NCBI GenBank assembly: GCA_947473125.1 | Contig: CANJDH010000008.1 | Span: 1 to 64,000, forward strand | Direction of reading: 5' to 3' | From: Burkholderiales bacterium | GTDB lineage: Bacteria > Pseudomonadota > Gammaproteobacteria > Burkholderiales > JAEUOS01 | DNA length: 64,000 nucleotides | Shown here: positions 13,611 through 28,954 of the stretch, piece by piece | How positions within the stretch are numbered: the stretch's first letter is position 1 | Layout: every line of letters begins with the position of its first letter | Program-made: the position numbers and the translations under genes | Notes under the pieces: model-generated | What the model saw: the letters and a program-made list of their open reading frames with translations, nothing else | Database searches by the model: none | What the model was told of the DNA's origin: nothing

Positions 13611-13638
13611 TTGCCATTTTTAACCAGACAGTTACAAT
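13611..13638 (+). promoter_or_regulatory. Predicted sigma-70 promoter of the TetR gene
   Basis: A -35 box TTGCCA (13611-13616) and a -10 box TACAAT (13633-13638) are separated by 16 bp. The ATG of the regulator is only 7 bases beyond the -10 box, so the transcript would be leaderless or nearly so. The operator-like palindrome fills the spacer and runs into the -10 box. This is a prediction from sequence only. Confidence 0.55.
13621..13636 (+). promoter_or_regulatory. Predicted TetR operator, site 1 (TAACCA-GACA-GTTACA)
   Basis: This is the first of three matches to TAACCA-N4-GTTACA in the window; its core TAAC-N6-GTTA is an inverted repeat. It lies between the -35 and -10 boxes of the regulator gene, where binding would block RNA polymerase, as expected for an autorepressing TetR protein. 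It also lies in the shared gap with the divergent glycerate 2-kinase gene. Confidence 0.65.
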
Positions 13639-13644
13639 CTATCC

Positions 13645-14337
13645 ATGGCCTCAGTGAAACCCGCCGCCGGCAAACCCCGCAAAACCCCCAAGGGTGCGGC
13701 GCGCCAGCCGACACCAAAGCCGACGCGCGACCCGGAGCGCACGCGCGCGCGCATCCTCGACGCGGCCAAAGCCGAATTCGCCGCGCACGGCCTGGGCGGC
13801 GCACGGGTCGACCGCATCGCCGCCAATGCCGATGCCAACAAGCGCATGCTGTACTACTATTTCGGCAACAAGGACGACCTGTTCCTCGCGGTGCTCGAAG
13901 GCGCCTATGCGCACATCCGTGACGCCGAGAAGGAACTGCGCCTCACCGAGATTGACCCGCCCGAGGCGATCCGCCGTTTGGTGGCGTTCACGTGGGAGTA
14001 TTACCTCGAGCACCCGGAGTTCATGAACCTGCTCAACAGCGCCAACCTGCACCAGGGACGGCACCTGAAAAAGTCGGCCAAGGTACGCACCATGCACTCA
14101 CCCTTTGTGGCGATGATCGAAGAGGTGCTCGAACGCGGCCGCAAGTCCGGCGTGTTCCGCGCCGGCGTGGACCCGGTGCAGCTCTACATTTCGATTGCGG
14201 CGCTGACCTACTTCTACCTCGGCAACAAGTTCACGCTCTCCGAGATCTTCGGGCGCGACCTGCTATCGCCGCGCGCCAAGGCCGAGCGCCTGGGCCACAT
14301 GGGCGAACTGGTGCTCGGCTTCCTGTTCAAGCACTAG
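13645..14337 (+). CDS. TetR/AcrR family transcriptional regulator
   Basis: A regulator of 230 aa with a basic, Pro/Lys-rich N-terminal tail (about 1-28) before the TetR DNA-binding domain: ARILDAAKAEFAAHGLGGARVDRIAANADANKRMLYYYFGNKDDLFLAVLEGAYAHI is the family pattern, with the recognition helix in ANKRMLYYYFGNK. The C-terminal ligand and dimer domain resembles the group with EYYLEHPEFMNLLNSANLHQGRHLK. It is divergent from the glycerate kinase gene and convergent with the MetE-like gene. Identical motif copies in its own promoter and in the intergenic region at 15430-15587 make it the likely repressor of the ten-gene operon. The inducer is unknown. Confidence 0.93.
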   Translation: MASVKPAAGKPRKTPKGAARQPTPKPTRDPERTRARILDAAKAEFAAHGLGGARVDRIAANADANKRMLYYYFGNKDDLFLAVLEGAYAHIRDAEKELRLTEIDPPEAIRRLVAFTWEYYLEHPEFMNLLNSANLHQGRHLKKSAKVRTMHSPFVAMIEEVLERGRKSGVFRAGVDPVQLYISIAALTYFYLGNKFTLSEIFGRDLLSPRAKAERLGHMGELVLGFLFKH

Positions 14338-14345
14338 ACAGGCGT

Positions 14346-14361
14346 GGCGCCGGCCGGCGCC
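14346..14361. terminator. GC palindrome between convergent genes, possible bidirectional terminator
   Basis: GGCGCCGGCCGGCGCC is a perfect 16-bp palindrome between the stops of the TetR gene and the MetE-like gene. It could fold with six-base arms around GGCC in either direction. There is no T-tract on either side, so intrinsic termination is doubtful. Confidence 0.3.
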
Positions 14362-14374
14362 GCAGAATCCTCGT

Positions 14375-15379
14375 CTAGCTTTTCACGCCCTCGAACAAAT
14401 CGCGGCCCTTGGCCAGCACCGCGATCTTCGCATCCGCAATCGAGCGCTTCAGCATCCAGAAGCCGCAGTCCGGATGGATGTATTTGACCCGGCCGGCGCC
14501 CAGGGTTTTCTCGGCGCGCTCAATCGCGCGCGCCACGTCGCTGGCCGCTTCGGTCTCGGTGTGCTTGATGTCGATCACGCCAAGGCCGAAGCCGATGCTC
14601 GCTCGCAGTTCCTTGAACACTTCGAGCTCTTCGACCGGCCGGTGCGCACATTCCATCACAACATGGTCGACATGCAGGGCATTCAGGTACTTGATCAGGC
14701 TGGCCCAGCCGCCTTTCTGGATGCTTTGCCCGCCGTAATTGCCGAAGCACAGGTGTACTGCCGGCACCGTCTTGACGGCATCGAGCACGCGGTTCAGCGA
14801 CGAGGCGGCCCACTCCCACTCGTCGGGGGCGCCAGGCAGGTTGGCTTCGTCGAGCTGGATGATGTCGGCGTCGATGTGGCGCACCTGCTCGGCGAGCACG
14901 TCGGCCAGCGCATGCGCCAGTGCCGGGGTGTCGGGGTAGTGCTTGTTCATCAGCATCTTGGCCAGCATGTGCGGGCCGGTCACGGTGAATTTGAAAGGTT
15001 TGGTGGCAAGCACTGCGGCGCGCCGACAGGCCAGCGGCAGATCCAGCGTGCCGCTGCCGAGCGGCCCTTCGACGACGCCCGGCGGGCGGGTGCGAAAGCG
15101 CGTCGCCTCGGCCTTGCGATAGTTGAGCCGCTCCTCGAACGTCATGCGAAAACCAACCCCGTCCATCGGCCGCACGAAGTACTCGATCATGCCGTTGGTC
15201 TCGGGGTGGTTGATGTCGAAGCGGTACAGCTCGCCGTCGCAGACCACGTCGACCCCGGCCTCCTCCTGGCTCGAGATCACGACGCGGGTGGCATCGATCA
15301 GTGCCTGCTCGGACGGCGCGGCCACCAGCCAGTCCGGGACCGGGTACGAGCCAACCACGGTGGTCTTGATACGGGGCAT
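14375..15379 (-). CDS. Short cobalamin-independent methionine synthase-like (MetE C-terminal domain) protein
   Basis: A protein of 334 aa equal to only the catalytic C-terminal (beta/alpha)8 barrel of MetE (about 750 aa). The start is the ATG complement of 15377-15379 (MPRIKTTVVGSYPVPDW), with GGAG 8 bases upstream. The zinc-ligand pattern is kept: HLCFGNYGG (His-x-Cys), an acidic residue after VDHVVMECAH, and Cys in HPDCGFWMLKRS. Without the N-terminal folate domain it probably uses another methyl or alkyl donor/acceptor. A predicted promoter overlapping a TAACCA-N4-GTTACA site drives it, tying it to the divergent enolase/ABC operon. Confidence 0.9.
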   Translation of the reverse strand: MPRIKTTVVGSYPVPDWLVAAPSEQALIDATRVVISSQEEAGVDVVCDGELYRFDINHPETNGMIEYFVRPMDGVGFRMTFEERLNYRKAEATRFRTRPPGVVEGPLGSGTLDLPLACRRAAVLATKPFKFTVTGPHMLAKMLMNKHYPDTPALAHALADVLAEQVRHIDADIIQLDEANLPGAPDEWEWAASSLNRVLDAVKTVPAVHLCFGNYGGQSIQKGGWASLIKYLNALHVDHVVMECAHRPVEELEVFKELRASIGFGLGVIDIKHTETEAASDVARAIERAEKTLGAGRVKYIHPDCGFWMLKRSIADAKIAVLAKGRDLFEGVKS

Positions 15380-15429
15380 GTGTCTCTCCTTTGAAGGGTA
15401 GTGTCGATTCGGCGGCATCCTAGCACAAG

Positions 15430-15445
15430 TAACCATATCGTTACA
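15430..15445 (+). promoter_or_regulatory. Predicted TetR operator, site 2 (TAACCA-TATC-GTTACA)
   Basis: This is the second copy of the shared motif; its arms extend to GTAAC/GTTAC (15429-15444). It overlaps the predicted -10 box (15432-15437) of the leftward promoter for the MetE-like gene, a position fit for repression. Confidence 0.65.
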
Positions 15446-15460
15446 TTATCCTTGTTGCAA
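15432..15460 (-). promoter_or_regulatory. Predicted promoter of the MetE-like gene
   Basis: Read on the minus strand there is TTGCAA (complement of 15455-15460), a 17-bp spacer and TATGGT (complement of 15432-15437). The start codon is about 50 bases further on. The -10 box is inside operator site 2. This is a prediction only. Confidence 0.45.
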
Positions 15461-15571
15461 CGCCCGAACGGACGAGTGCCCCGGTGCCGGCCGCATCACA
15501 TTCCCGTCTGAACTGATTACGGCAACGCAGCATTGCATGATTGGACAGGGTTCGGAACGACTGTTAACATT

Positions 15572-15587
15572 TAACCATTCAGTTACA
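15572..15587 (+). promoter_or_regulatory. Predicted TetR operator, site 3 (TAACCA-TTCA-GTTACA)
   Basis: This is the third copy of the motif, 31 bases before the start of the first gene of the ten-gene operon and in the same orientation as sites 1 and 2. The TTACAC within it may form part of a -10 region, by analogy with TTACAAT at site 1, but I could not place a convincing -35 box. Confidence 0.62.
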
Positions 15588-15617
15588 CTCATCCGGATTT
15601 CCGCCAAAAAGGCCGCA

Positions 15618-16760
15618 ATGAGCAGGATCGTACGCGTCGAGGTCGGCTGGCGGGACTACCCGCTGGTCGGCGATTTCAAGTTCTTCAAATCGGGGCAGCG
15701 GCCCACGGTGCTGGTGCGCCTGACCGATGAAGACGGCAGGCAGGGCATCGGCCAGTCGGTGCCGGTGGAGACCTGGACCTACGAAACCGTCGAAAGCGTC
15801 GACACCACGTTGCGCCACTACCTGGCCCCGGCGGTGCTGGGCGCCGACCCGTCCGACCTGGCCGACGTGCATGCGCGCATGGAACGCGCGATCCGTCCGT
15901 CGTTCTCGATCGGTCAGCCGCTCGCCAAGGCCGCCATCGACCTGGCCTGTTACGACCTATGGGGCCGGCGGGCCGGCAAGCCGGTGCATGCGCTGCTCGG
16001 AAGCCCCGGCGCCCGACCCGCTGTGCCTGCCACGGAAATTCGCCTCAGCTGGACCATCAATACCACCAGCCTCGATGCGGCCGGGAAACTCCTCGAGCAG
16101 GGCCGCGGCCTCGGCTATGACAGTTTCAACATCAAGCTCGGGCCGCCGCAGTCGGCCGCCTTCGACCTCGACCTGGTGCGCCTGGTCACGCAGTTTTCAC
16201 CGCTGGGGTTTCACTGGTGCGACGCGAACACCAGCTACGACATCGACACCGCACTCGCCCAGGCGCCACGGCTCGCAGACCTGGGCTTGCGTGCGCTCGA
16301 GTCGCCACTGCCGCCGAACCGGATCCGCGATTACCAGCGCCTGCGGCAGCAGGGCGCATTGCCGATTCTGATGGACGAAGGCATCGTCTCGCCGGTCGAA
16401 GCGGCGGAGTTCGCGGCGCTCGGCATGCTCGACGGCATCGCCATGAAGGTGGCGCGCTGCGGCGGGCTCTGGCACGCCTCGAACATTGTCGAAGGCATGC
16501 GCCGCGACGGCCTCACGCTGTTCGCCTCGGGCCTGACCGACCCGGAGCTGTCGCTGGCGGCTTCGGTGCATTTGTTCGCCTGGGCCGGCCTGACTTTGCC
16601 TGCGGCCCTGAACGGTCCACAATATCTGGCCGAACGCGGCACCACCGATGGCGCGTTCCGCGCCGTCGCCGACCGCATCCGGGTACCCAACGGCCCCGGC
16701 CTCGGCATCCACCCCGATTCCACCGCACTGCAATCCTTCACCCTGGCAGCGTCGACATGA
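15618..16760 (+). CDS. Enolase-superfamily (mandelate racemase/muconate lactonizing) enzyme 1
   Basis: A protein of 380 aa; I chose ATG 15618 (MSRIVRVEVGWRDYPLVGDF) over an upstream in-frame ATG at 15537, because 15537 would place operator site 3 inside the coding region. N-terminal capping domain about 1-130, then the barrel. Metal ligands fit D in HWCDANTSYD, E in RALESPLPPN and E/D in ILMDEGIVSP; a Lys follows in AIAMKVARCGG. On the second strand the usual K-x-K is N-I-K (SFNIKLG), so only one of the two lysines is kept. Probably abstracts the alpha-proton of a carboxylate (dehydratase, racemase or cycloisomerase). First gene of the operon; its stop overlaps the permease ATG by 4 bp. Confidence 0.9.
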   Translation: MSRIVRVEVGWRDYPLVGDFKFFKSGQRPTVLVRLTDEDGRQGIGQSVPVETWTYETVESVDTTLRHYLAPAVLGADPSDLADVHARMERAIRPSFSIGQPLAKAAIDLACYDLWGRRAGKPVHALLGSPGARPAVPATEIRLSWTINTTSLDAAGKLLEQGRGLGYDSFNIKLGPPQSAAFDLDLVRLVTQFSPLGFHWCDANTSYDIDTALAQAPRLADLGLRALESPLPPNRIRDYQRLRQQGALPILMDEGIVSPVEAAEFAALGMLDGIAMKVARCGGLWHASNIVEGMRRDGLTLFASGLTDPELSLAASVHLFAWAGLTLPAALNGPQYLAERGTTDGAFRAVADRIRVPNGPGLGIHPDSTALQSFTLAAST

Positions 16761-17524
16761 GCAAACTTTCTCCCCTGGCCGGCATCCTGGTGTTCCTCGC
16801 GATCTGGGAGCTCGGCGTGTACCTGTTCAATGTGCCGGCCTACCTGATGCCGCCACCGACCGCGGTCGCAAAAACCTTCGTCCAGGAGTTTCCCAAGCTG
16901 CTGTTCCACGGCTGGGTGACCACCTACGAAATGCTGCTCGGCTACGTGCTTGCCGTGGTGATCGCGATCCCGCTGGCGATCGGCATCACCTCGTCGCACC
17001 GCTTCGACCGCTTCATCACGCCGCAACTGCTGTTTTTCCAGGTGGTGCCGAAGGTCGCGATCGCGCCCTTGTTCCTGGTCTGGTTCGGCGTCGGCACCAC
17101 GCCCAAGGTGCTGGTGGCCTTCCTGATTTCGTTTTTCCCGATCGTGATCGATGCCGCCGTCGGGCTGCGCTCGATGTCGTCCGAAATGACCGACTTGGCG
17201 CGCTCGATGGGCGCAACGCGCTGGCAGCTGTTCGCGCGCTTTCGCCTGCCGACCAGCCTGCCCTACCTGTTCAGCGGCCTCAAGGTCGCCGCCACGCTCT
17301 CGGTGGCCGGTGCCGTGGTCGGCGAGTTCGTCGGCGCCGACAAGGGCCTGGGCTACCTGCTGCTGGTCACCAACTCAAACATGGAGACCGCCCTGATGTT
17401 CGCGACAATCGTGGCGCTGACCGTGATTGGCCTGGTGTTCTTTTACGTGGTCGAGTTTCTTGAAGCATTCCTGATCCCCTGGCACGTGACCCATCGCGTG
17501 CGCGAAGGCTCGGGAACAATGTAG
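16757..17524 (+). CDS. ABC transporter permease (nitrate/sulfonate/taurine type)
   Basis: A permease of 255 aa starting at ATG 16757, overlapping the enolase gene's TGA. About six transmembrane segments are visible, and the cytoplasmic EAA-like loop that docks the ATPase is clear: MTDLARSMGATRWQLFARFRLPTSLPYLFSGLKVA. It belongs to the SsuC/TauC/ThiX-like group of BPD_transp_1 permeases. It forms one importer with the binding protein and ATPase that follow. The placement of the permease before the binding protein and ATPase is a common order for this group. Confidence 0.93.
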   Translation: MSKLSPLAGILVFLAIWELGVYLFNVPAYLMPPPTAVAKTFVQEFPKLLFHGWVTTYEMLLGYVLAVVIAIPLAIGITSSHRFDRFITPQLLFFQVVPKVAIAPLFLVWFGVGTTPKVLVAFLISFFPIVIDAAVGLRSMSSEMTDLARSMGATRWQLFARFRLPTSLPYLFSGLKVAATLSVAGAVVGEFVGADKGLGYLLLVTNSNMETALMFATIVALTVIGLVFFYVVEFLEAFLIPWHVTHRVREGSGTM

Positions 17525-17569
17525 TCAACGCAGTTTTTCCATCCTGTTTTGCCAAACCAAGGAGACAAC

Positions 17570-18580
17570 ATGAAAAACAGACTGTTGCTGGTGATATTGC
17601 TCTTGTTCTGCAGCCAGGCGTTCGCGCAGCCCAAGCTGGAGAAATTTCCGTTCCGGCTCAACTGGACGCTGTATGGCGAGCACGCGCCGTTCTTCGTCGC
17701 GCGCGACAAGGGTTTTTACGCAGCCGAAGGCCTGGATGTCGAAATCCAGGAGGGCAGCGGTTCCACTACCGTGGCGCAACTGGTCGCGAGCAGCAACAGC
17801 CCGGTGGCCTATGTCGATGCCGCCACCATGATGCGCGGCATCTCCAACGGCATGCCGATCAAGGCGGTCGGCGTGACCTTGCAGCAAAGCCCGATGGCCT
17901 TCATCTACCGCGCCGACGCGGCGCGTCCGACCAAGCTCTCCGAGATCAAGGGCAGCCGCATCGCCTTGACGGCGGGAGACGCCAGCCTGACGATCTTCAC
18001 CGCCTTCATGGGCAAGGTCGGCATGAAGCTCGAAGACGTGCAGATGATCACGGTGGCCAACCCGCAGGGCAAGGAGCAGGCGGTGCTGAACAAGCAGGCC
18101 GACGCGCTGCTCGGCTACTTCATGGACCAGGGCCCGCGCATGCAGCTGCAGACCGGCGTCAAGATGGGCTGGACCCGCCTCTATGACCTCGGCGGCGTCA
18201 GCACCCTGTCGAGCGCAATGATCGCCAACAACAACTGGCTAAAGGACGCCAAGAACCAGGACCTGCTGCGACGCTTCCTGCGCGCCTCGCAGCGCGGCTG
18301 GCAATACACCTTTGACAACCGCGCCGAGGCCGCCGAGATTTTCCGCAAGGCGGCGCCCGCGTTCACCCAGGAAATCGCTCTGCTCGAAGTCGACGGCACG
18401 ATGAGCATCATCCGCACCGATCGCACCAAGGGCAAGCCGATCGCCTGGTCCGACGTCGGCGACTGGCGCGACTCGCAAGACCTGCTGGCCAAGTACGCCA
18501 AGCTCAACCCGCAGTCCGACCTGAACGCGTATTTCACCAACGAATACCTCTCTGAACCGCCCTACATGCCGAAAAAATAA
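17570..18580 (+). CDS. ABC transporter substrate-binding protein (NMT1/SsuA-like)
   Basis: A periplasmic protein of 336 aa with a signal peptide (MKNRLLLVILLLFCSQAFA, cleavage expected after AQA/FAQ) and the NMT1/THI5-like fold: FRLNWTLYGEHAPFFVARDKGFYAAEGLDVEIQEGSGSTTVAQLVASS. The start ATG 17570 has AAGGAGA 7 bases upstream. NMT1-type proteins bind pyrimidines, thiamine precursors, sulfonates or aromatic carboxylates; the family does not tell the ligand here. Its TAA shares a base with the ATPase ATG. Confidence 0.93.
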   Translation: MKNRLLLVILLLFCSQAFAQPKLEKFPFRLNWTLYGEHAPFFVARDKGFYAAEGLDVEIQEGSGSTTVAQLVASSNSPVAYVDAATMMRGISNGMPIKAVGVTLQQSPMAFIYRADAARPTKLSEIKGSRIALTAGDASLTIFTAFMGKVGMKLEDVQMITVANPQGKEQAVLNKQADALLGYFMDQGPRMQLQTGVKMGWTRLYDLGGVSTLSSAMIANNNWLKDAKNQDLLRRFLRASQRGWQYTFDNRAEAAEIFRKAAPAFTQEIALLEVDGTMSIIRTDRTKGKPIAWSDVGDWRDSQDLLAKYAKLNPQSDLNAYFTNEYLSEPPYMPKK

Positions 18581-19359
18581 TGGCAGCAGAAGCCTACATC
18601 CAGCTCGACGACGTCAGCAAGGTCTACCGCGCCAAGGCCGGCCAGGTCGAGGCCTGCGGCGAGATCAACCTCGACATCCGCGAGTCCGAGTTCGTTGCCA
18701 TCGTCGGTCCGAGCGGCTGCGGCAAGACCACCATCCTGAAGATGGTGGCCGGGCTGCAGCCGCGCAGTTCCGGCTCGATCACGGTCGGCGGGCGCAGCGT
18801 CGATCGGCCCCAGACCGATCTTGGCATCGTGTTCCAGGATGCGATCCTGCTCGACTGGCGCAGCGTGCTCGACAACGTGATGCTGCAGGTGGATATTCGC
18901 AACCTCGACCGCGCCACCTACGAGCCGATCGCACGCCACCTGCTCGAATTGACCGGCCTCAAGGGGTTCGAGCATCACAAGCCGTTCGAACTGTCGGGCG
19001 GCATGCGCCAGCGCGTGTCGATCTGCCGCGCACTGGTGCACGACCCGCCGCTGCTGTTGATGGACGAGCCGTTCGGTGCCCTCGACGCGCTCACGCGCGA
19101 GCAGATCTCGATGGACATCCAGCGCGTCTGGATGGAAAAGCGCAAGACCGCGCTGTTCATCACGCACAGCATTCCCGAGGCGGTGCTGCTGGCCGACCGC
19201 GTGGTGGTGATGAGCCCGCGCCCGGGACGCATCGTCGAGATCATCGACATCGACCTGCCGCGCCCGCGCAAGCTCGACAGCATGCCGGAGAAATTTTCTG
19301 AATACACCGGACGCATCCGCAGCATCTTCAAGGCGTCCGGCGTGCTGGCAATGGACTGA
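18580..19359 (+). CDS. ABC transporter ATP-binding protein (SsuB/TauB-like)
   Basis: A nucleotide-binding subunit of 259 aa. All motifs are present: Walker A GPSGCGKTT, Q-loop GIVFQD, signature LSGGMRQRVSICRAL, Walker B LLLMDEPFGALD and H-loop FITHSI. The closest general type is the nitrate/sulfonate/taurine importer ATPases. Its start overlaps the stop of the binding-protein gene by one base, giving translational coupling. It completes the importer of this operon. Confidence 0.95.
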   Translation: MAAEAYIQLDDVSKVYRAKAGQVEACGEINLDIRESEFVAIVGPSGCGKTTILKMVAGLQPRSSGSITVGGRSVDRPQTDLGIVFQDAILLDWRSVLDNVMLQVDIRNLDRATYEPIARHLLELTGLKGFEHHKPFELSGGMRQRVSICRALVHDPPLLLMDEPFGALDALTREQISMDIQRVWMEKRKTALFITHSIPEAVLLADRVVVMSPRPGRIVEIIDIDLPRPRKLDSMPEKFSEYTGRIRSIFKASGVLAMD

Positions 19360-19378
19360 GTCGCGCGCCGGAGATTCG

Positions 19379-20845
19379 ATGCACACCAACCAGGGCCGCG
19401 CGCACGGCGAAGCTGCGTCGTTTTCGGTTTGCGCGATCGAGCTGTTCGAACGGCCGGTGGTGCTGCGCCTGCCGTTCCGCTTTGGCGTGGTGACCCTGAC
19501 GCATTGCCCGCAGGCGTTCGTGCGGGTGCGTATCCGCATGCCCGACGGCCGCGAGGTCAGCGGCGCCGCCGCCGAAATGATGGCGCCCAAGTGGTTCGAC
19601 AAGAACCTTGCCTTGTCCAACGAAGACAATTTCAACCAGTTGCGCGACGTGCTGCACCTGGCGCGCGAGGCCTACCTTTCGGACCCGGCGCCGGACACCG
19701 CGTTCGGCCACTTTGCACGCCACTACGACGCCCACCAGCTTGCCGGCGCCGCACGCGGCTACAACCCCTTGCTCGCCAACCACGGCCCGGCATTGATCGA
19801 CCGCGCCATTCTCGACGCGCTGTGTCGCGCGCATGGCACCTCGTTCTACCTGGCGATGCAGCGCAATCTACCCGGCATCGGCTCAACACGCAACGAGTTC
19901 GCCGCCCTAGACATCGAACGCTTCCTCGCTGCGCTCAAACCTGCACCCTCAATCGAGGCGCGCCACACGGTGGGCCTGGTCGATGCGATCACGGCCGCCG
20001 ACCTCAAGGAGCCGGTCGACGACGGCCTGCCCGAGACCCTTGAACAGGTCGTCGCGCATTACGGCCATCGCTATTTCAAGCTCAAGGTCGGCGGCGATCT
20101 CGACGCCGATGTGGCGCGCCTGACGGCGATTGCGGCCGTGCTTGATCGCGCCGCACCGCCCTATTTCGCCTCGCTGGACGGCAACGAGCAGTACGAAACC
20201 GCGGAGCAGGTACGGGAGTTGCTGGCGCGCATGCGCGGCACGCCGACCCTGCAACGCCTGACGGCGTCGATCCTCTTTGTGGAGCAGCCGATTGGCCGGA
20301 AAACCGCTCTGGAAGCCGATTTCCGCGGTAATGCCCTGGGGCTGCCGGTGATCATCGACGAGTCCGACGGCAGCCTCGACACCTTTGTCGCGGCACGCGA
20401 GCGCGGCTACAGCGGCGTGTCGAGCAAGACCTGCAAGGGCCTGTACAAGTCGATCCTGAACGCGGCGCGCTGCGCGCAATGGAATGCCGAAGCGAATGCC
20501 GAAGCCGGGGCGACGCGTTTTTTCATGTCGGCCGAGGACCTCACCACCCAGGCAGGCCTCGCGGTGCAGCAAGACCTCGCGCTGGTCAGCTTCCTCGGCA
20601 TCACCCATGTCGAGCGCAACGGCCATCACTACGTGAACGGCATGGCGGCCCTGCCACAAGGCGAGCAGCGTTCCTTCCTGGCTGCGCACCCCGATGTCTA
20701 CGAACAATCGCACGGCGCCGTACGGCTCAGGATCAATCATGGGCGCATCGCACTCGCCTCGCTCGACTGCGCCGGCTATGCCAGTGCGGCAATGCCGGAT
20801 TTTTCGGCGATGAACTCGATCACTCCGGCCGCACAACCCGTTTAA
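19379..20845 (+). CDS. Enolase-superfamily enzyme 2, long form
   Basis: A protein of 488 aa, roughly 100 aa longer than usual for the superfamily. The barrel shows a complete set of active-site positions: K-x-K in RYFKLKVGGDLDADVARL, Asp in FASLDGNEQYE, Glu in ILFVEQPIGR, Asp-Glu in VIIDESDGSLDT and Lys in GVSSKTCKGLYKS. It starts at ATG 19379 with GGAG 9 bases upstream. Extra length is spread through insertions and a long C-terminal part (THVERNGHHYVNGMAALPQ). The two enolase-superfamily enzymes of the operon are dissimilar and probably catalyse different steps. The substrate is unknown. Confidence 0.87.
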   Translation: MHTNQGRAHGEAASFSVCAIELFERPVVLRLPFRFGVVTLTHCPQAFVRVRIRMPDGREVSGAAAEMMAPKWFDKNLALSNEDNFNQLRDVLHLAREAYLSDPAPDTAFGHFARHYDAHQLAGAARGYNPLLANHGPALIDRAILDALCRAHGTSFYLAMQRNLPGIGSTRNEFAALDIERFLAALKPAPSIEARHTVGLVDAITAADLKEPVDDGLPETLEQVVAHYGHRYFKLKVGGDLDADVARLTAIAAVLDRAAPPYFASLDGNEQYETAEQVRELLARMRGTPTLQRLTASILFVEQPIGRKTALEADFRGNALGLPVIIDESDGSLDTFVAARERGYSGVSSKTCKGLYKSILNAARCAQWNAEANAEAGATRFFMSAEDLTTQAGLAVQQDLALVSFLGITHVERNGHHYVNGMAALPQGEQRSFLAAHPDVYEQSHGAVRLRINHGRIALASLDCAGYASAAMPDFSAMNSITPAAQPV

Positions 20846-20865
20846 CCAATTTACACGGACTATCT

Positions 20866-22029
20866 ATGGCAATTCAACGACTCGGCATCATCATGAACGG
20901 CGTGACCGGACGCATGGGCATGAACCAGCACCTGATCCGCTCGATCGTGGCAATCCGCGCGCAGGGCGGCGTGGCGCTGGCCAACGGCGACCGCGTCATG
21001 CCCGATCCGATCCTGATCGGCCGCAACGCCGACAAAATCGCCGCGCTCGCCAAGGCGCACGGCATCGAACGCTGGGGCACCGACCTCGACAAAGCCCTGG
21101 CAAACAAGGACGACACGCTGTTCTTTGACGCCGCCACCACCCAGATGCGCCCCGGCCTGCTCGCCAAAGCGATCCATGCCGGCAAGGACATCTACTGCGA
21201 GAAGCCGGTCGCGACCAACCTGAAGGAAGCGACCGACATCTATCACCTCGCCAAAGCCAAAGGCATCAAGCACGGCGTGGTGCAGGACAAGCTGTTCCTG
21301 CCCGGACTGATGAAGCTCAGGATGCTGCGCGATGCCGGCTTCTTCGGCCGCATGTTGTCGGTGCGCGGCGAGTTCGGCTACTGGGTATTCGAAGGCGACC
21401 TGCAGCCGGCCCAACGCCCGTCGTGGAACTATCGCTCCGAAGACGGCGGCGGCATGATCCTCGACATGGTGTGCCACTGGCGCTACGTGCTCGACAACCT
21501 GTTCGGTGAAGTCAAGTCGGTGTCCTGCCTGGGCGCGACCCATATCCCGGAGCGTTTCGACGAGGCCGGCAAGAAATACCAGGCGACCGCTGACGATGCT
21601 GCTTACGCCACCTTTGAACTGGTCGCACCGGACGGCAGCCCGGTGATCGCGCAGATCAACATGTCGTGGACCACGCGCGTGCGCCGCGACGACCTCGTCA
21701 CCTTCCACGTCGACGGCACGCACGGCTCGGCCGTCGCCGGCCTGACTGATTGTCGCAGCCAGGCGCGCGTCAACACCCCCAAGCCGGTGTGGAACCCGGA
21801 CGTGAAGCAGCCGTTCAACTTTTTCGACCACTGGCAGCCGGTGCCCGAGTACACGACCTTCGATAACGGCTTCAAGGTGCAGTGGGAAATGTTCATCCGC
21901 CACCTCGCTGAGGGCACGCCGTTCAAATGGAACCTGCTCGAAGGCGCCAAGGGCGTGCAGCTGGTTGAGTGCGCGCTGCAATCATCGAAGGAGCGGCGCT
22001 GGGTCGACGTGCCGGCGCTGGCAGCGTAA
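20866..22029 (+). CDS. Gfo/Idh/MocA family NAD(P)-dependent oxidoreductase
   Basis: A protein of 387 aa; the start is ATG 20866 (MAIQRLGIIMNGVTGRMGMNQHLIRS). N-terminal Rossmann domain about 1-150 with the family motif EKPVATNLKEATD following YC; C-terminal alpha/beta domain with NYRSEDGGGMILDMVCHWRYVLDNLFGEVKSV, where the conserved D...H pair of the active site can be seen. Members oxidise or reduce sugars, inositols and sugar acids. The glycine-rich loop reads MNGVTGRMG, so the nucleotide motif is not the classic GxGxxG. It lies 20 bp after the second enolase gene. Confidence 0.92.
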   Translation: MAIQRLGIIMNGVTGRMGMNQHLIRSIVAIRAQGGVALANGDRVMPDPILIGRNADKIAALAKAHGIERWGTDLDKALANKDDTLFFDAATTQMRPGLLAKAIHAGKDIYCEKPVATNLKEATDIYHLAKAKGIKHGVVQDKLFLPGLMKLRMLRDAGFFGRMLSVRGEFGYWVFEGDLQPAQRPSWNYRSEDGGGMILDMVCHWRYVLDNLFGEVKSVSCLGATHIPERFDEAGKKYQATADDAAYATFELVAPDGSPVIAQINMSWTTRVRRDDLVTFHVDGTHGSAVAGLTDCRSQARVNTPKPVWNPDVKQPFNFFDHWQPVPEYTTFDNGFKVQWEMFIRHLAEGTPFKWNLLEGAKGVQLVECALQSSKERRWVDVPALAA

Positions 22030-22088
22030 TCCGGCCACGACCATCGGCCGGCAAGCCTTGGACCACAATGCTTTTCAGGGCAATGCTG

Positions 22089-22117
22089 TGAAAACCCGCT
22101 CCCACCAAAGGTTTTCA
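22089..22117. repeat. REP-like repeat copy with hairpin (copy A)
   Basis: TGAAAACC (22089-22096) and GGTTTTCA (22110-22117) are perfect inverted arms around CGCTCCCACCAAA. Read on the minus strand, 22091-22115 is AAAACCTTTGGTGGGAGCG plus GGTTTT, which matches the intergenic repeat found at 36195, 37653, 39549 and 39589. It sits between the oxidoreductase and DUF993 genes and could affect mRNA stability within the operon. Confidence 0.6.
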
Positions 22118-22141
22118 GAGCATGCCTAAAGGAGAAATTGA

Positions 22142-23326
22142 ATGAACGCCCCCGAACGCCTCAGCAATACGATCAAGCTCCCCACCACCGACGGCCGCCT
22201 CGAAGACTTCCGCCTGTCGGTGCCGCGCGACTTCCCGTCCAGGGCGCAAGGCGTATTCACGCGCATCGCCTACTCGGCGGCGCATGTCGTCTCCGACCCG
22301 TTGCGAGAACAGGATCCCTGGCTCGATTGCGCGATCGACTGGGACGCTACCATCGCCTACCGCCGCCACCTGTGGCAGCTCGGCATGGGCGTGGCCGAGG
22401 CGATGGACACGGCGCAGCGCGGCATGGGCATGGACTGGCCGACTTCGCTCGAACTGATCCGGCGCTCGATCGACGCCTCCAAAGACATCAAGGGCGCGTT
22501 TCTCGCCAGCGGCGCCGGCACCGACCACCTGGCGCCCGAGAATGCGAAATCGATCGACGACGTGATCCGCGCCTACGAAGCGCAGGTCGGCGCAATTGAA
22601 AAACTCGGCGGCAGGATCATCCTGATGGCGTCGCGCGCGCTAGCGCGCGTAGCGAAGTCGCCTGACGATTACCACAAGGTCTACGACCGCATCCTCTCGC
22701 AGGTGAAGGAGCCGGTGATCATCCATTGGCTCGGTGAAATGTTCGACCCGGCCCTGGCCGGCTATTGGGGCAACGCCGACCACATGAAAGCCATGGATGC
22801 TGCTGTCGAGGCGATCAACCGCAACGCTGCCAAAGTCGACGGCGTGAAGGTGTCGCTGCTCGACAAGGACAAGGAAATCGCGATGCGCCGGCGCCTCGCC
22901 AAGGGCGTAAAAATGTATACCGGCGACGATTTCAACTACGCCGAATTGATCGAAGGCGACAGCGAAGGCTACAGCCACGCCCTGCTCGGCATCTTCGACG
23001 CAATTGCTCCTGCCGCGTCCGCCGCGCTCACTGCATTGGCGAAGAACGACAACAAGACCTTCAACGAGATCCTTGCACCCACGGTGCCGCTGTCGCGCCA
23101 CATCTTCAAGTCGCCGACGCGTTTCTACAAGACCGGTGTGGTGTTCATGGCCTACCTCAACGGCCAGCAGGACCACTTCACCATGGTCGGCGGGCAGCAG
23201 AGCACGCGCTCCATCGGGCATCTGGCCCAATTGTTCCGCCTCGCCGACCAGGCTGGCCTGCTGCACGACCCCGATCTCGCCTGCAGCCGCATGCGTGCCA
23301 CGCTGGCCGTGCATGGCATCGTCTGA
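22142..23326 (+). CDS. DUF993 family protein (dihydrodipicolinate synthase-like)
   Basis: A protein of 394 aa starting at ATG 22142 with AAGGAGA 9 bases upstream. It matches DUF993: WLDCAIDWDATIAYRRHLWQLGMGVAEAMDTAQRGMGMDW near the start, GGRIILMASRALARVA, VKEPVIIHWLGEMFDPALAGYWG and VDGVKVSLLDKDKEIAMRRRL. The last segment carries a Lys on a predicted barrel strand, compatible with a Schiff-base aldolase-type chemistry, but no activity is established for the family. Its position next to a Gfo/Idh/MocA oxidoreductase and a TIM-barrel isomerase argues for a role in carbohydrate-like breakdown. Confidence 0.88.
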   Translation: MNAPERLSNTIKLPTTDGRLEDFRLSVPRDFPSRAQGVFTRIAYSAAHVVSDPLREQDPWLDCAIDWDATIAYRRHLWQLGMGVAEAMDTAQRGMGMDWPTSLELIRRSIDASKDIKGAFLASGAGTDHLAPENAKSIDDVIRAYEAQVGAIEKLGGRIILMASRALARVAKSPDDYHKVYDRILSQVKEPVIIHWLGEMFDPALAGYWGNADHMKAMDAAVEAINRNAAKVDGVKVSLLDKDKEIAMRRRLAKGVKMYTGDDFNYAELIEGDSEGYSHALLGIFDAIAPAASAALTALAKNDNKTFNEILAPTVPLSRHIFKSPTRFYKTGVVFMAYLNGQQDHFTMVGGQQSTRSIGHLAQLFRLADQAGLLHDPDLACSRMRATLAVHGIV

Positions 23327-23354
23327 CAAATACTGCAATAGCAAGGAGCCACCC

Positions 23355-24314
23355 ATGAAGCGCCTGTTGATGTCATGTCTCACCGCCTGTCTCGCTGCCA
23401 CGGCTTTCACGGCGTCGGCACAACCGTATCCGAACCGCCCGGTGAAGATCATCATCCCGTTCCCGCCAGGGGGCACGCTCGACATCGTCGGGCGCATGCT
23501 GGCCCTCAAATTGGGCGAGCAGACCGGCCAGCAGTTCGTGGTGGAAAATCGTGCCGGCGGCAACGCCACCATCGGCGCCACCGCGGTGGTCAAGTCGCCC
23601 GCTGACGGCTACACCCTGCTGTTCAACGCCTCCACGCTCGTCACCGGCCCGCTGGTGATGGCAACGCCGCCCTACAGCATCGCCAACGACTTCACCGCGA
23701 TCGCGCTGGTGGCCAAGGCGCCGCTGTCGGTGGCGATCAACAAGAACCTGCCGATCACTGACATGAAAGGCTTGTTCACCTATGCCAGGGCCAATCCCGG
23801 CAAGCTGTCGTTTGCGATCGGCTCGGTATCTTCCGCGGGCCACCTCGCCACGGAACTGCTCAAGCGCGGCGGCGGTGGCGACTATCAAATCGTGCCTTAC
23901 AAGGGTTCAACCCCCGCCTACCAGGACCTGATCGGCGGCTCGATCGCCGGCTTTGTCGACCCGGTGCTGGGCGCGGTGCAGCACCACAAGGCCGGCAACC
24001 TGCGCATCCTCGCAGTGACCTCGTCGACGCGCCTGCCGACCCTGCCCGACGTGCCGACCGTGGCCGAAACCCTGCCCGGCTTCGAATTCACCAGCTGGTA
24101 CGGCCTGTGGGGCCCGGCCAAACTGCCCGCCGACATCACGCAGCGCCTCAACGACGAGGTCAACAAGGCGCTCGCCGGCGAGATGCGCGACAAGCTGCTG
24201 GCGCAGGGTATCCTGCTCGGCGGCGGCAGCGTCGCCGAATTCAACAAGTATCAGCAGGACTACATCAAAGAGATGGGCAAGCTGATCGCGGACGCGAAGA
24301 TACGTGTCGAGTAA
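23355..24314 (+). CDS. Bug-family tripartite tricarboxylate transporter receptor
   Basis: A periplasmic receptor of 319 aa; start ATG 23355 with AAGGAG 9 bases upstream. Signal peptide MKRLLMSCLTACLAATAFTASAQ, then the family hallmark [51 protein letters not shown] and VPYKGSTPAYQDLIGG. It adds a second uptake component to an operon that already has a full ABC importer; no TctAB genes are in the window. It overlaps the following dehydrogenase gene by 11 bp. Confidence 0.95.
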   Translation: MKRLLMSCLTACLAATAFTASAQPYPNRPVKIIIPFPPGGTLDIVGRMLALKLGEQTGQQFVVENRAGGNATIGATAVVKSPADGYTLLFNASTLVTGPLVMATPPYSIANDFTAIALVAKAPLSVAINKNLPITDMKGLFTYARANPGKLSFAIGSVSSAGHLATELLKRGGGGDYQIVPYKGSTPAYQDLIGGSIAGFVDPVLGAVQHHKAGNLRILAVTSSTRLPTLPDVPTVAETLPGFEFTSWYGLWGPAKLPADITQRLNDEVNKALAGEMRDKLLAQGILLGGGSVAEFNKYQQDYIKEMGKLIADAKIRVE

Positions 24315-25251
24315 TACGGCGAAGCCGGTCGGCACCGTAGGGATCATAGGCTTGGGCCTGGTCGGTTCCGCCATCGCACAACGCCTGCAAGGCGCGGGCT
24401 ACGCCTGCGTCGGCTTCGACATCGCCGTGCAGACCTACGAACATTTCGCCGCGATCGGCGGCAAGGTCGCCACCTCGGCGCGCGACGTCGGCCAGAAGGC
24501 CGCGGTCCTGATCACTGCAGTATTCGACACCAACGACGTGCTGAAAGTCATCGAGGGCCCCAATGGAGCGCTCGAAGGCGCGGGAGCGCTCGAAGGCGCG
24601 GGAGCGCTCGAAGGCGCGGGAGCCCTTGAAGGCGGCAAGCCGCAAGTCATCATCGATTGCTCCACCGGCGACCCGGAACTGCTGACCTGGTTCGCAGACC
24701 GCCTGCGTGTGCGCGGCATCGAATTCATTGAAGCGCCGCTGTCAGGATCGAGCGCGCAGATCGCTGCCGGCGAAGCCACCATGCTGCTCGGCGGCGACGC
24801 GAACACCATCGCCGCGCATGCAGCGCTGCTTGATGCCATTGCGCCGAAGCGCTTGCACGCCGGTGGCGCCGGCATGGGCGCGCGCGCCAAACTCGCGACC
24901 AATCTCGTGCTGGGCCTGAACCGCGCCGCGTTTGCAGAAGGCCTGGCGTTTGCCGAAAAGCTCGGCATCGCGCCGGGGAAATTTCTCGAACTGGTGCTCG
25001 CCTCGCCGGCGCGCTCCGACGCGGCTGCGGTCAAGGGGCCGCTGATGGTGTCGGGAGAGTTTACGCCGCAGTCACGGATTCGCCAGCACCTCAAGGATGT
25101 CGACATGATGCTCGAACACGCGCGCCGCGCCCACCAGCGCCTGCCACTCTCGGAAGCCCACGCGGCCCTGATGCGCGCCGCCATCGAAGCCGGTGATGGC
25201 GAGCTCGACAACGCCGCCATCGTGCGCCAGATCCGGCGCGAAACCAGTTAA
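24304..25251 (+). CDS. NAD(P)-dependent beta-hydroxyacid dehydrogenase (3-hydroxyisobutyrate dehydrogenase-like)
   Basis: A protein of 315 aa starting at GTG 24304 inside the end of the Bug gene. N-terminal Rossmann motif VGIIGLGLVGSAIAQRL; substrate-binding motif FIEAPLSGSSAQIAAGEATMLLGGD; catalytic Lys in RAKLATNLVLGLNR. Between residues 88 and 111 there is an insert of four tandem GALEGA-type units encoded by an 18-bp repeat, in the loop where the family normally runs straight from the D-V-L segment to the D-x-S/T strand (IIDCSTGDPE). Such enzymes oxidise 3-hydroxyisobutyrate, tartronate semialdehyde-related or similar acids. Confidence 0.9.
   Translation: MSSNTAKPVGTVGIIGLGLVGSAIAQRLQGAGYACVGFDIAVQTYEHFAAIGGKVATSARDVGQKAAVLITAVFDTNDVLKVIEGPNGALEGAGALEGAGALEGAGALEGGKPQVIIDCSTGDPELLTWFADRLRVRGIEFIEAPLSGSSAQIAAGEATMLLGGDANTIAAHAALLDAIAPKRLHAGGAGMGARAKLATNLVLGLNRAAFAEGLAFAEKLGIAPGKFLELVLASPARSDAAAVKGPLMVSGEFTPQSRIRQHLKDVDMMLEHARRAHQRLPLSEAHAALMRAAIEAGDGELDNAAIVRQIRRETS
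24565..24636 (+). repeat. In-frame 18-bp tandem repeat inside the dehydrogenase gene
   Basis: Three perfect units of GGAGCGCTCGAAGGCGCG (24565-24582, 24583-24600, 24601-24618) are followed by a fourth, diverged unit (24619-24636). Each encodes Gly-Ala-Leu-Glu-Gly-Ala or nearly so, giving GALEGA repeats at residues 88-111. Perfect identity of three units points to recent slippage or unequal exchange. Confidence 0.95.
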
Positions 25252-25269
25252 GCCTGCCTTCACTGACCC

Positions 25270-26133
25270 ATGCGCGATTTCTCACGCAGCCACGAATGGC
25301 TCTCGATCAACACCGCCACAGTGCGCAAGCAGTGGCCGCTAGATCGCATCATCGACGAATGCGCAAAGCGCGGCATCCGCGCGATCAGCCCGTGGCGCGA
25401 TCAGGTGGCAGAGGTCGGGCTCGACAAGATCGCGGCGCTGCTGCGCGCCACCAGCATCACGTTATCGGGCTATTGCCGCGGCGGCTTCTTTCCCGCAAGC
25501 GATGCTGCGGGCCTGAAAGCGGCGATCAACGACAACATAAAGGCCATCGACGAAGCCAAGACTCTCGATGCGCCGTGCCTGGTGCTGGTGGTGGGCTCGC
25601 TGCCCGGCGCCCTCAGCGGCAAGCCTGTGCACCACGACATCACGCGCGCGCGCAACGAAGTGCGCGACGGCATCGCCGCGTCACTCGAATACGCGCGCAA
25701 GGTCGGCATGCCGCTGGCCATCGAACCCCTGCATCCGATGCAGGCAGCGGAACGCGCCTGCGTCAACACTCTCGAGCACGCGCTCGACCTGTGCGACGAA
25801 CTCGACCCCGACGAGACCGGCGCACTCGGCGTCGCGGTGGACATGTATCACGTCTGGTGGGACCCGAAGCTGCAACAACAGATCACGCGCGCAGGCAAAA
25901 TGCGATTGCTCGCGTTTCACGTGTGCGACTGGTTGATCCCGACGCGCGACCTGCTCAACGACCGCGGCATGATGGGCGACGGCGTGATCGAGTTGCAGAA
26001 GGCGCGCGGCTGGGTCGAAGACGCCGGATTCGCCGGCTTTGCCGAAGTCGAGATTTTTTCGGGGCACTGGTGGGCGCAGCCCGGCGGCGACGTGCTCGAC
26101 ACCTGCATTGCACGGCATCGCGCAACCGTCTGA
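25270..26133 (+). CDS. TIM-barrel sugar phosphate isomerase/epimerase family protein
   Basis: A protein of 287 aa of the AP-endonuclease-2-like TIM-barrel family (xylose isomerase-like). Strand-end acidic and histidine residues typical for the metal site can be seen: MPLAIEPLHPMQ (Glu), VAVDMYHVWWDP (Asp/His), LLAFHVCDWLIP (His/Asp) and FAEVEIFSGHWW (Glu). It is the last gene of the ten-gene operon, 18 bp after the dehydrogenase. Likely an isomerase or epimerase acting on a sugar, sugar acid or inositol-like intermediate; the substrate is not identifiable. Confidence 0.9.
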   Translation: MRDFSRSHEWLSINTATVRKQWPLDRIIDECAKRGIRAISPWRDQVAEVGLDKIAALLRATSITLSGYCRGGFFPASDAAGLKAAINDNIKAIDEAKTLDAPCLVLVVGSLPGALSGKPVHHDITRARNEVRDGIAASLEYARKVGMPLAIEPLHPMQAAERACVNTLEHALDLCDELDPDETGALGVAVDMYHVWWDPKLQQQITRAGKMRLLAFHVCDWLIPTRDLLNDRGMMGDGVIELQKARGWVEDAGFAGFAEVEIFSGHWWAQPGGDVLDTCIARHRATV

Positions 26134-26173: not shown

Positions 26174-26191
26174 ACATTGGTAAAACACGCC

Positions 26192-26464
26192 ATGTCCGCC
26201 ACCGCCCGCTTCGATCTGAAAATGGATGCCGCCGAAAAGGATCTGGTGGCACGCGCGGCCGCGCTAATGGGCACCACCATGGCTGGATTCGTCCGCGCGG
26301 CAGCCAAGGAGAAGGCCGTAACCCTGCTGGATCGGGAAACGCGCGTCACAATGTCAAAGGGAGACTTTGACGCACTGATGAAAGCGCTGGATCGCCCGTT
26401 CACTCCGAACAAGGCACTCAAGCGCGCACTGGCCCAGGCCGCCGCCAAAGTACGCAGTGTTTGA
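26192..26464 (+). CDS. DUF1778-family antitoxin (TacA-like)
   Basis: A protein of 90 aa; I chose ATG 26192 (MSATARFDLKMDAAEKDLV) rather than GTG 26177. The N-terminal half fits a ribbon-helix-helix DNA-binding domain (ATARFDLKMDAAEKDLVARAAALMGTTMAGFVRAAAKEKA), and the C-terminal half (SKGDFDALMKALDRPFTPNKALKRALAQ) is the DUF1778 toxin-neutralising tail with the FDALMKALD..P..N..L pattern. It overlaps the GNAT gene by 8 bp and is preceded by a palindromic operator, the usual set-up for a type II antitoxin. Confidence 0.92.
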   Translation: MSATARFDLKMDAAEKDLVARAAALMGTTMAGFVRAAAKEKAVTLLDRETRVTMSKGDFDALMKALDRPFTPNKALKRALAQAAAKVRSV

Positions 26465-26942
26465 AGATGGTGTGCTCGATCCGGAGCGGCATGATCGCGC
26501 CGGATTTTCCTGTGGCGTGCCCGAGCTTGATGAATATCTGCAACGATTCGCGCACCAGCACTGGCGCCGCGGCATCAGTACGACGTATGTGTTAGTGGAG
26601 CCGGCGCAACCTCGACTGATTCTGGGTTATTACACACTGAGCGCCGCGCAAATCGATATCGCGCAGCTGGCTGACCTTGACCGGCGCAGACTGCCACGCT
26701 ATCCGGTGCCCTGCTTTCGCATGGGGCGCCTTGCATGCAGGGCGGATCAGCGCGGGCGGGGACTGGGAACACTGCTGATTGGCCGCGCCGTGACGCGCTG
26801 CCTGGAGGCGCGCCGCCAAGTGGCGGCATTTGCACTCATCGTAGACGCGAAGGACGCCGTGGCAAAAGGCTTTTACACGCGCCATGGATTTACACCCTTC
26901 AGCGCCGCCCCACTATCGCTTTACCTGCCCTTACCGGGATAG
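26457..26942 (+). CDS. GNAT-type toxin (TacT-like N-acetyltransferase)
   Basis: A protein of 161 aa with the features of toxin acetyltransferases that acetylate aminoacyl-tRNA: an opening with F.CG.PELDEYL (FSCGVPELDEYLQRFA), TYVLVEPAQPRLILGYYTLS, RLPRYPVPCFRMGRLA, the acetyl-CoA-binding loop RGRGLGTLLIGRA, VDAKDAVAKGFYTRHGF with the catalytic Tyr, and a hydrophobic end. The start at 26457 overlaps the antitoxin gene. The position normally Val/Asp in LAVD is LACRAD here, a small deviation. The target tRNA cannot be read from sequence. Confidence 0.92.
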   Translation: MFEDGVLDPERHDRAGFSCGVPELDEYLQRFAHQHWRRGISTTYVLVEPAQPRLILGYYTLSAAQIDIAQLADLDRRRLPRYPVPCFRMGRLACRADQRGRGLGTLLIGRAVTRCLEARRQVAAFALIVDAKDAVAKGFYTRHGFTPFSAAPLSLYLPLPG

Positions 26943-26963: not shown

Positions 26964-28451
26964 TCAGGCGAGGTTGGCCGCCTTCTTGACCTGCGTCAGC
27001 CGCACCATCTCAGGTGACTTCTTGTAGTGGGTGTCGAGCGGGTAGCAACCCGACACCATGCCGTTGCGCGGCGCGGTGGTGCAGTCGCTGAAGGTGCGGC
27101 ACAGGCGCTTGCGCTGCATCGCACGCCCGGCGAGTACGTCGGCCGGAAGCTCCGGGTAGGCCAGCACCATGCGCCCCAGGCCGACCATGTCGACCCAGCC
27201 TTCGCGCACCACCGCCTGCGCCACGTGCGGCAAAAATTCCTGCAGGTAGGTATAGCCGCTGCCGACGAACGCGAGGTCGGGGCAGGCGCGTTTCAGGTCG
27301 CGCACGGTTTCAAGATGGCGCATCACGCCGATCAGCGGGTCTTCGGGCGGCTGGTAGCCGTCGGAAGGCGGATACAGCGCCGGGCGCGTGAGGTGCGGGT
27401 TGTAATACGGGCTGCCCAGCGTGACGTTGATCAGGCGAATGCCCAGGCCCTTGACCACGTCGAGAAACGCGCGGGTCTCGGCGAGATCGGGCTTGACCGG
27501 GTCGGCTTCGTCAACGCCGAAGCCGTAGCGATACGGCAGGCATTGTGCGTAGTTGTCCGGCACGCCAGGGCCCAGTATTTTGGTATCGGCGTTGGCATCG
27601 CCATGGGCCGGGTCGGGCTTGTAGGGCACGAGGTCGAGCGCGGAGAGGCGCACGCCCATTTCGAGCCTGGGCACTTCGGCGCGAATGCCGGCCACCAGCT
27701 CGGCGAGAAAGCGCGTGCGATTCGCCAGCGAACCGCCGAACTCGCCGTCGCGGGTTTTCGCCGACAGGAACTCGTGGCCGAGGTAGCCGTGGCAATGCTT
27801 GAGGTCAACGAACTGGTAGCCGCATTCGTACGCGCGCTTGGCGGCGATCACGTAATCGTCGATCAGCGCACGGATCTCGCCGTCGGTAAACAGCGGGTGG
27901 TCTGCGGCGATGCGGAACTTGCGATCGAGGATCGGGTGGCGATACAGGATGCGCGGTTCCATGCGCGCCTTGTCGTTGGGCTTGCAAAAGCGCCCCGAGT
28001 GGGTCAGCTGCAGGCCGACCACCAGCCCCTTGTCGTCGCCCATCGCCTCACGGTGCGCGGCCACCAGCGTCTCGCGCAATGCGGCGATGCTTGACTGGCT
28101 GGCGGCGGTCATGGTGAGCTGGTTCGGGTTGGCGCGGCCGTCATGGCGCACCGCCACCGCTTCGCCGCCCCAGATCATCTTGGCGCCGGAGAGCCCGAAA
28201 TTGCGCCAGCGGCGAATCGTGTTCGCGGAAGGCTTGCCATCCTCTTCGCCGTCCCAGCCTTCCATCGGCTGGATCGCGAAGCGGTTGCCGATGGTGAACG
28301 GCCCAGCCTGCAATGCCGTGCCCAGCGGCGATGCCGGCCCGGAAGCGACGATGTCGTCGCAGGGCATCGCCAGCCCGAGGCGTTGCAGGTTGTCCTTGAA
28401 TCCGGCGCTGGTCTGCAGGGATTTTATTTTTGCGAAGTCGCCGAATTTCAC
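26964..28451 (-). CDS. NADH:flavin oxidoreductase, Old Yellow Enzyme family
   Basis: An FMN-dependent TIM-barrel reductase of 495 aa, clearly longer than the roughly 360 aa of simple OYEs. Visible: GPFTIGNRFAIQPMEGWDGEEDGKPS (FMN/active-site strand), KMIWGGEAVAV, LVVGLQLTHSGRF (the Q-L-x-H-x-G motif), YVIAAKRAYECGYQFVDLKHCHGYLGHEFLS with the His/His and Leu-x-x-FLS block, and near the C-terminus VGSGYTYLQEF and VDMVGLGRMVLAYP. The C-terminal tail has several Cys (RLCRTFSDCTTAPRNGMVSGC), unusual for OYE and possibly a metal or Fe-S site. It is cotranscribed with the cupin upstream (23-bp gap). Confidence 0.9.
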   Translation of the reverse strand: MKFGDFAKIKSLQTSAGFKDNLQRLGLAMPCDDIVASGPASPLGTALQAGPFTIGNRFAIQPMEGWDGEEDGKPSANTIRRWRNFGLSGAKMIWGGEAVAVRHDGRANPNQLTMTAASQSSIAALRETLVAAHREAMGDDKGLVVGLQLTHSGRFCKPNDKARMEPRILYRHPILDRKFRIAADHPLFTDGEIRALIDDYVIAAKRAYECGYQFVDLKHCHGYLGHEFLSAKTRDGEFGGSLANRTRFLAELVAGIRAEVPRLEMGVRLSALDLVPYKPDPAHGDANADTKILGPGVPDNYAQCLPYRYGFGVDEADPVKPDLAETRAFLDVVKGLGIRLINVTLGSPYYNPHLTRPALYPPSDGYQPPEDPLIGVMRHLETVRDLKRACPDLAFVGSGYTYLQEFLPHVAQAVVREGWVDMVGLGRMVLAYPELPADVLAGRAMQRKRLCRTFSDCTTAPRNGMVSGCYPLDTHYKKSPEMVRLTQVKKAANLA

Positions 28452-28474
28452 GCGCGTGGCTCCTGGTCAGGAAA

Positions 28475-28849
28475 TCAGTAGAACGTATTGGGCTTGAGGA
28501 AAAAGCCGAGCACCAGCGCGCCATTCGGCGCGTGCGCCACATGGCGGCTGCCCGGCGGGCGCCAGACAAAGTTGCCGGCAGTGGCTTCGCCTTCGTGGTC
28601 CACCAGGCTGCCTTCGAGGATCCAGCTTTGCTCGATGTTCACATGCATGTGGTCGGTCAGCACCGTGCCCGGGGCCATGCGCGTGAGCACCGTCTGCAGG
28701 CCGGTGTCGGGGTCTTCCATCAGCACCTTGATTTCGATGCCGGGAAAACGCGTCGGCTGCCAGGGCAGCGACTCGACGTTGATGTAGCGCGACGACAGCG
28801 GCGCCAGTTTGGCGTGCTGCTCCTGCAATCCAGGCGTCTGATGGGCCAT
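28475..28849 (-). CDS. Small cupin (ChrR-like) protein
   Basis: A cupin of 124 aa starting at the ATG complement of 28847-28849 (MAHQTPGLQEQHAKL), with GGAGA 10 bases upstream; the longer open frame upstream has no homology. Motif 1 is well conserved: PGTVLTDHMHVNIEQSWILEGSL with HxH and the following Glu, and motif 2 is VWRPPGSRHVAHAPNG with His. It could be a metal-dependent oxygenase, isomerase or sensor. It is divergent from the SMP-30 gene (105 bp apart) and sits directly upstream of the OYE-type reductase. Confidence 0.88.
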   Translation of the reverse strand: MAHQTPGLQEQHAKLAPLSSRYINVESLPWQPTRFPGIEIKVLMEDPDTGLQTVLTRMAPGTVLTDHMHVNIEQSWILEGSLVDHEGEATAGNFVWRPPGSRHVAHAPNGALVLGFFLKPNTFY

Positions 28850-28954
28850 GCTGGGGTCTCCTGAAATCGGCGAAACCGTGAGCATACCTGCAAGCGACGC
28901 GATAAACTCCTGCCTGCTCTTCCCGCTGTTCAATAATCCCCGCTGGGTGAACCC

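Follow-up and report, generated by a model that had tools for sequence, protein, structure and literature searches.

Three copies of one inverted repeat in the window (the whole stretch of 64,000 nucleotides analysed here) are, with high probability, operators of the adjacent TetR-family repressor, which would control its own gene, a metE-like gene and a ten-gene operon. A local TetR regulon is supported because the sites are unique genome-wide, conserved at promoters and enriched compared with control loci. The repressor circuit is very probably real but conventional. The features of the locus are listed below by coordinates and strand; the operators, being palindromic, are given without strand.

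13611..13638, plus: tetR promoter TTGCCA-N16-TACAAT (promoter scan, 10/12 consensus matches; spacing conserved in orthologues)
13621..13634: putative operator O1 (TAACCAGACAGTTA), filling the tetR −35/−10 spacer and overlapping the first 2 bases of the −10 box
13645..14337, plus: tetR, TetR-family repressor of 230 aa (TetR_N plus TetR_C_29)
14375..15379, minus: metE-like gene, short MetE C-domain (Meth_synt_2) protein of 334 aa (domain match)
15417..15425, minus: conserved extended −10 (TGCTAGGAT) of the metE-like promoter, 4 nt downstream of O2
15430..15443: putative operator O2 (TAACCATATCGTTA) of the metE-like gene (window motif and conservation)
15572..15585: putative operator O3 (TAACCATTCAGTTA) of the ten-gene operon (window motif and conservation)
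15584..15589, plus: candidate operon −10 TACACT, conserved in the alignment and overlapping the end of O3
15618..16760, plus: eno1, muconate-cycloisomerase-like enolase-superfamily enzyme, first gene of the operon
16757..19359, plus: ABC importer (domain matches), consisting of a permease (16757-17524), an NMT1-like binding protein (17549-18580, ATG probably at 17570) and an ATPase (18580-19359), all plus
19379..20845, plus: eno2, divergent enolase-superfamily protein
20863..22029, plus: Gfo/Idh/MocA oxidoreductase (closest solved relative 3oqb)
22142..23326, plus: DUF993 protein (closest solved relative 4dnh, uncharacterised)
23352..26133, plus: last three operon genes, coding for a TctC-type binding protein (23352-24314), a 3-hydroxyisobutyrate-dehydrogenase-like protein (24304-25251) and a TIM-barrel isomerase (25270-26133; solved relative 3ju2), all plus

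The exact motif is unique to this locus in the genome

As the preliminary description had reported, the pattern TAACCA-N4-GTTACA occurs exactly at 13621-13636, 15430-15445 and 15572-15587 of the plus strand, and a scan of the window places all three copies outside genes. The genome-wide count that it had proposed (4,877,126 bases; ~4.88 Mb) returned only these three exact copies, all inside the window and none at random places, and the next-best genomic sites differ by 1–2 mismatches. Its claim that three such sites are unlikely by chance is borne out by shuffled versions of the window, in which 0.00 copies of the exact 16-mer pattern are expected (three observed) and 0.04 copies of the shorter core TAAC-N6-GTTA (three observed). 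The core has seven copies genome-wide, three of them in the window; the other four fall inside long open frames and do not have the CCR/YGG inner bases (for the C45 copy by direct reading of the sequence), and they were rejected as regulon members. When scored with a matrix derived from cluster sites, those of the window included, the three sites reach 28.8–29.8, and the best of the remaining window sites reaches 3.6.

The symmetric operator consensus is GTAACCR-N2-YGGTTAC, a palindrome of 14–16 bp, and because it is symmetric, the asymmetric “TTACA” end of the 16-base pattern is in part the −10 boxes TACAAT (tetR) and TACACT (eno1). Of 399 genomes of the order, 101 contain the degenerate palindrome; on its own the motif is therefore not diagnostic and becomes meaningful only at promoters, and its bare count was dropped as a co-occurrence test across this set as too unspecific.

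Position of the sites in the three promoters

The tetR product matches the N-terminal helix-turn-helix of TetR proteins (PF00440, 53 bits against a cut-off of 24) and the C-terminal ligand/dimerisation domain TetR_C_29 (PF17938, 150 bits against 26.2), and, as is typical of the family, putative palindromic operators lie in its own promoter and in neighbouring ones. O1 sits between the −35 box (TTGCCA, 13611-13616) and the −10 box (TACAAT, 13633-13638), where the preliminary description had located it. Six nucleotides separate the −10 box from the ATG; given a normal discriminator, the transcript would begin at the start codon, which occupies the expected +1 and is not preceded by a Shine-Dalgarno site. 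The tetR mRNA is thus predicted to be a leaderless autorepressor transcript, with the A of the start codon as its probable first base. An ATG lies 10 nt past the operator in nine genomes (G000–G004, G179, G349, G395 and G085), 9 nt past it in G171 and 11 nt in G293; G179, G395 and G004 have an additional ATG triplet closer to the operator.

The start of the metE-like gene at 15379, behind AAGGAGAG, was preferred to a longer in-frame start from the mechanical ORF list. The protein keeps two motifs, H-x-C at residue 209 and PDC at residue 303, which resemble the zinc ligands of MetE. O2 had been placed over the −10 box of this gene; the conserved −10 TGCTAGGAT is instead found just downstream of the operator. 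In the promoter scan, the −35 regions of both the metE-like gene and eno1 match the consensus poorly. At eno1, the scan favours TGGACA-N17-TAACAT (15542-15570), just upstream of the candidate listed above and not conserved; with either −10 candidate, a bound repressor would block initiation. The operon spans 15618-26133 with short intergenic gaps, except for 112 nt upstream of the DUF993 gene. Its 3-hydroxyisobutyrate-dehydrogenase-like protein (24304-25251) carries about four tandem GALEGA-type repeats inside the NAD-binding domain.

This arrangement suggests a simple mechanism. A TetR dimer would bind GTAACCR-N2-YGGTTAC at the three promoters, where it would occupy the spacer and the −10 edge and so block RNA polymerase at tetR, the metE-like gene and the ten-gene catabolic/transport operon. 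A pathway intermediate probably frees TetR, so that the three units would be induced together, and negative feedback on tetR would adjust the repressor level. Of the single control unit initially proposed, tetR, the metE-like gene and the operon are supported by uniqueness, conservation and enrichment. The divergent glycerate 2-kinase, which had been suggested as a possible further member, is unsupported as a fourth target: it is the neighbour of tetR in three of six genomes (G000, G002 and G003, not G001, G004 and G179), and no good kinase promoter overlapping O1 was found.

Conservation and enrichment at orthologous loci

We compared five genomes of the family, including the one studied (G000–G004). 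Comparison with orthologous clusters, also proposed in the preliminary description, finds the motif conserved at corresponding promoters, although related genomes are non-independent samples in such counts. G002 and G001 carry the operator at the same three promoters (tetR, metE-like gene and eno1; in G001 split over two contigs), G003 at the tetR promoter, and G004 at tetR and ahead of the operon. In an alignment of the metE–eno1 intergenic region (G000, G001 and G002), conservation is concentrated in the two operators, their −10 boxes and the starts of the genes. Across this and other families of the order, the gene that leads the operon behind the operator varies, being eno1 in G000–G002, a TctC transporter gene in G004 and G171, eno2 in G013 and gfo in G104; the predicted operator thus stays with the operon whichever gene comes first.

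Rhizobiales MAGs that contain this cluster have the operator before a second metE-like gene (L080, L084 and L085) and also upstream of eno1 (L080 and L083–L085). The distant relatives L082, L133 and L136 show operator variants with few changed bases at matching places; in clusters with partial gene content, the exact core was not found in L134 and L135, and L129 is weak. G395 (exact core) and G085 (one-base variant) have a site at tetR, and DUF993 was not found in these two genomes at E ≤ 1e-80. TetR homologues lacking a recognisable site at their own gene occur in G380, G013, G270, G104 and the Rhizobiales.

As a control, loci were collected by protein similarity and searched for the core TAAC-N6-GTTA, whose definition came only from the window. 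The seven Eno1 orthologue loci, two of which come from genomes already in the conservation set, contain 12 cores (0.10 expected from shuffles), nine DUF993 loci with the cluster contain six (0.07 expected) and 13 TetR orthologue loci contain 10 (0.02 expected). No core was found in 13 loci of distant eno1 homologues, in 10 cluster-less DUF993 loci or in six loci of TetR paralogues and distant relatives. The recognition helix reads NKR(M/L) in all orthologues versus NERM in the four close paralogues, none of which has the operator at its promoter. This NKR/NER difference, a correlative observation, fits a changed DNA specificity. The paralogue G000:C20 was rejected as a competing binder on account of its missing promoter site, different recognition helix and unrelated neighbours.

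Alternative explanations

The operators might be real but recognised by another regulator whose gene lies elsewhere, with the neighbouring TetR just one of its targets. The Rhizobiales MAGs lend this some weight, as they keep the operators while their local TetR shares only 45–48% identity and its own gene has no site. We nevertheless consider it very improbable, since the site goes specifically with TetR orthologues (10 sites in 13 loci versus none in six paralogue or distant loci), lies at a fixed 10 nt ahead of a tetR ATG in nine genomes and is present at tetR in G395 (core) and G085 (variant), where DUF993 was not found at the threshold given above.

A few TetR-family proteins act as activators. 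That this one activates, or both activates and represses, at one of the three promoters would agree with the poor −35 matches at the metE-like gene and eno1, but each of the three sites reaches into the spacer or the −10 edge, where operators that act by steric repression usually lie, which makes this reading improbable. That an AT-rich palindrome recurs between genes by chance could draw on the degenerate form, which roughly one in four genomes of the order contains; this reading is contradicted by uniqueness in the genome, conservation at orthologous promoters and the shuffle controls, and its probability is negligible. Repression by the adjacent TetR thus remains the preferred reading.

Comparison with known systems and significance

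The best-scoring NCBIfam model for the window TetR is RutR, at 63.6 bits against an equivalog cut-off of 368, which excludes it from that equivalog family. The operator of RutR, the pyrimidine utilisation regulator of E. coli, is TTGACCA-N2-TGGTCAA, with the same arm and spacer geometry as here; RutR differs in that the window TetR has a TetR_C_29 C-terminal domain and a regulon without rut genes. The closest solved sequence is 3npi (E 7e-24), a TetR-family PDB entry without assigned function, for which we know of no described operator or ligand. In the literature search we found no paper naming DUF993 or tying the gene set together and, among the matches listed, none giving a GTAACCR-N2-YGGTTAC-type operator for a TetR.

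The closest precedent for the layout is AcuR of Rhodobacter sphaeroides (acuR-acuI-dddL), a TetR-family repressor with a leaderless mRNA and an inverted repeat, TAATAGAC-n6-GTCTATTA, that overlaps its own promoter; the inducer is acrylate (PMC3017554). Both systems combine a TetR-family protein, an inverted-repeat operator at its own promoter, a leaderless repressor mRNA (here predicted) and local catabolic genes. AcuR differs in its operator, in its known inducer and in the location of acuR in the same operon as its targets, and the window TetR scores 24.7 bits against the NCBIfam AcuR model (cut-off 247), well outside that equivalog. Classification of the window TetR as a new TetR regulon of conventional type is well supported, and its conserved, predicted leaderless autorepressor promoter would add another example of the AcuR-type layout.

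The regulation itself being conventional, the practical use of the operator lies in linking uncharacterised enzymes. One operator ties together enzymes whose closest solved relatives are functionally unnamed (DUF993/4dnh, TIM barrel/3ju2 and Gfo-type/3oqb), which argues for one pathway. We regard as evenly balanced the broader proposal that this TetR and GTAACCR-N2-YGGTTAC constitute an undescribed regulon in Burkholderiales and Rhizobiales, in which the short zinc-type MetE-like protein, the two enolase-superfamily enzymes, the Gfo/Idh dehydrogenase and DUF993 would act on one imported, possibly methylated, substrate. The ligand that releases TetR is likely a pathway compound and hence a handle for finding this substrate.

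Neighbouring genes and further sites

Flavin oxidoreductase and cupin genes (26964-29065) follow past the operon without an operator in the window. G002 and G003 have a TTAACGAAYTGGTTAA site directly ahead of the oxidoreductase homologue and in G001 the homologues of both genes are located inside the operon; the border of the regulon therefore varies. An identical TTTTAACGACCCGGTTAC site is found in G002 and G001 at a locus near ABC-transporter ATPases (L068:5083-5096 and L069:5779-5792), possibly a further target in that genus. Directly past the operon (26177-26942), a gene for a TacA-like antitoxin shares a few bases with one for a GNAT acetyltransferase, and the two are likely a toxin–antitoxin pair. 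Further downstream (29990-32185), an ORF of 731 aa fuses a metallo-beta-lactamase fold to a cyclic-nucleotide-binding domain.
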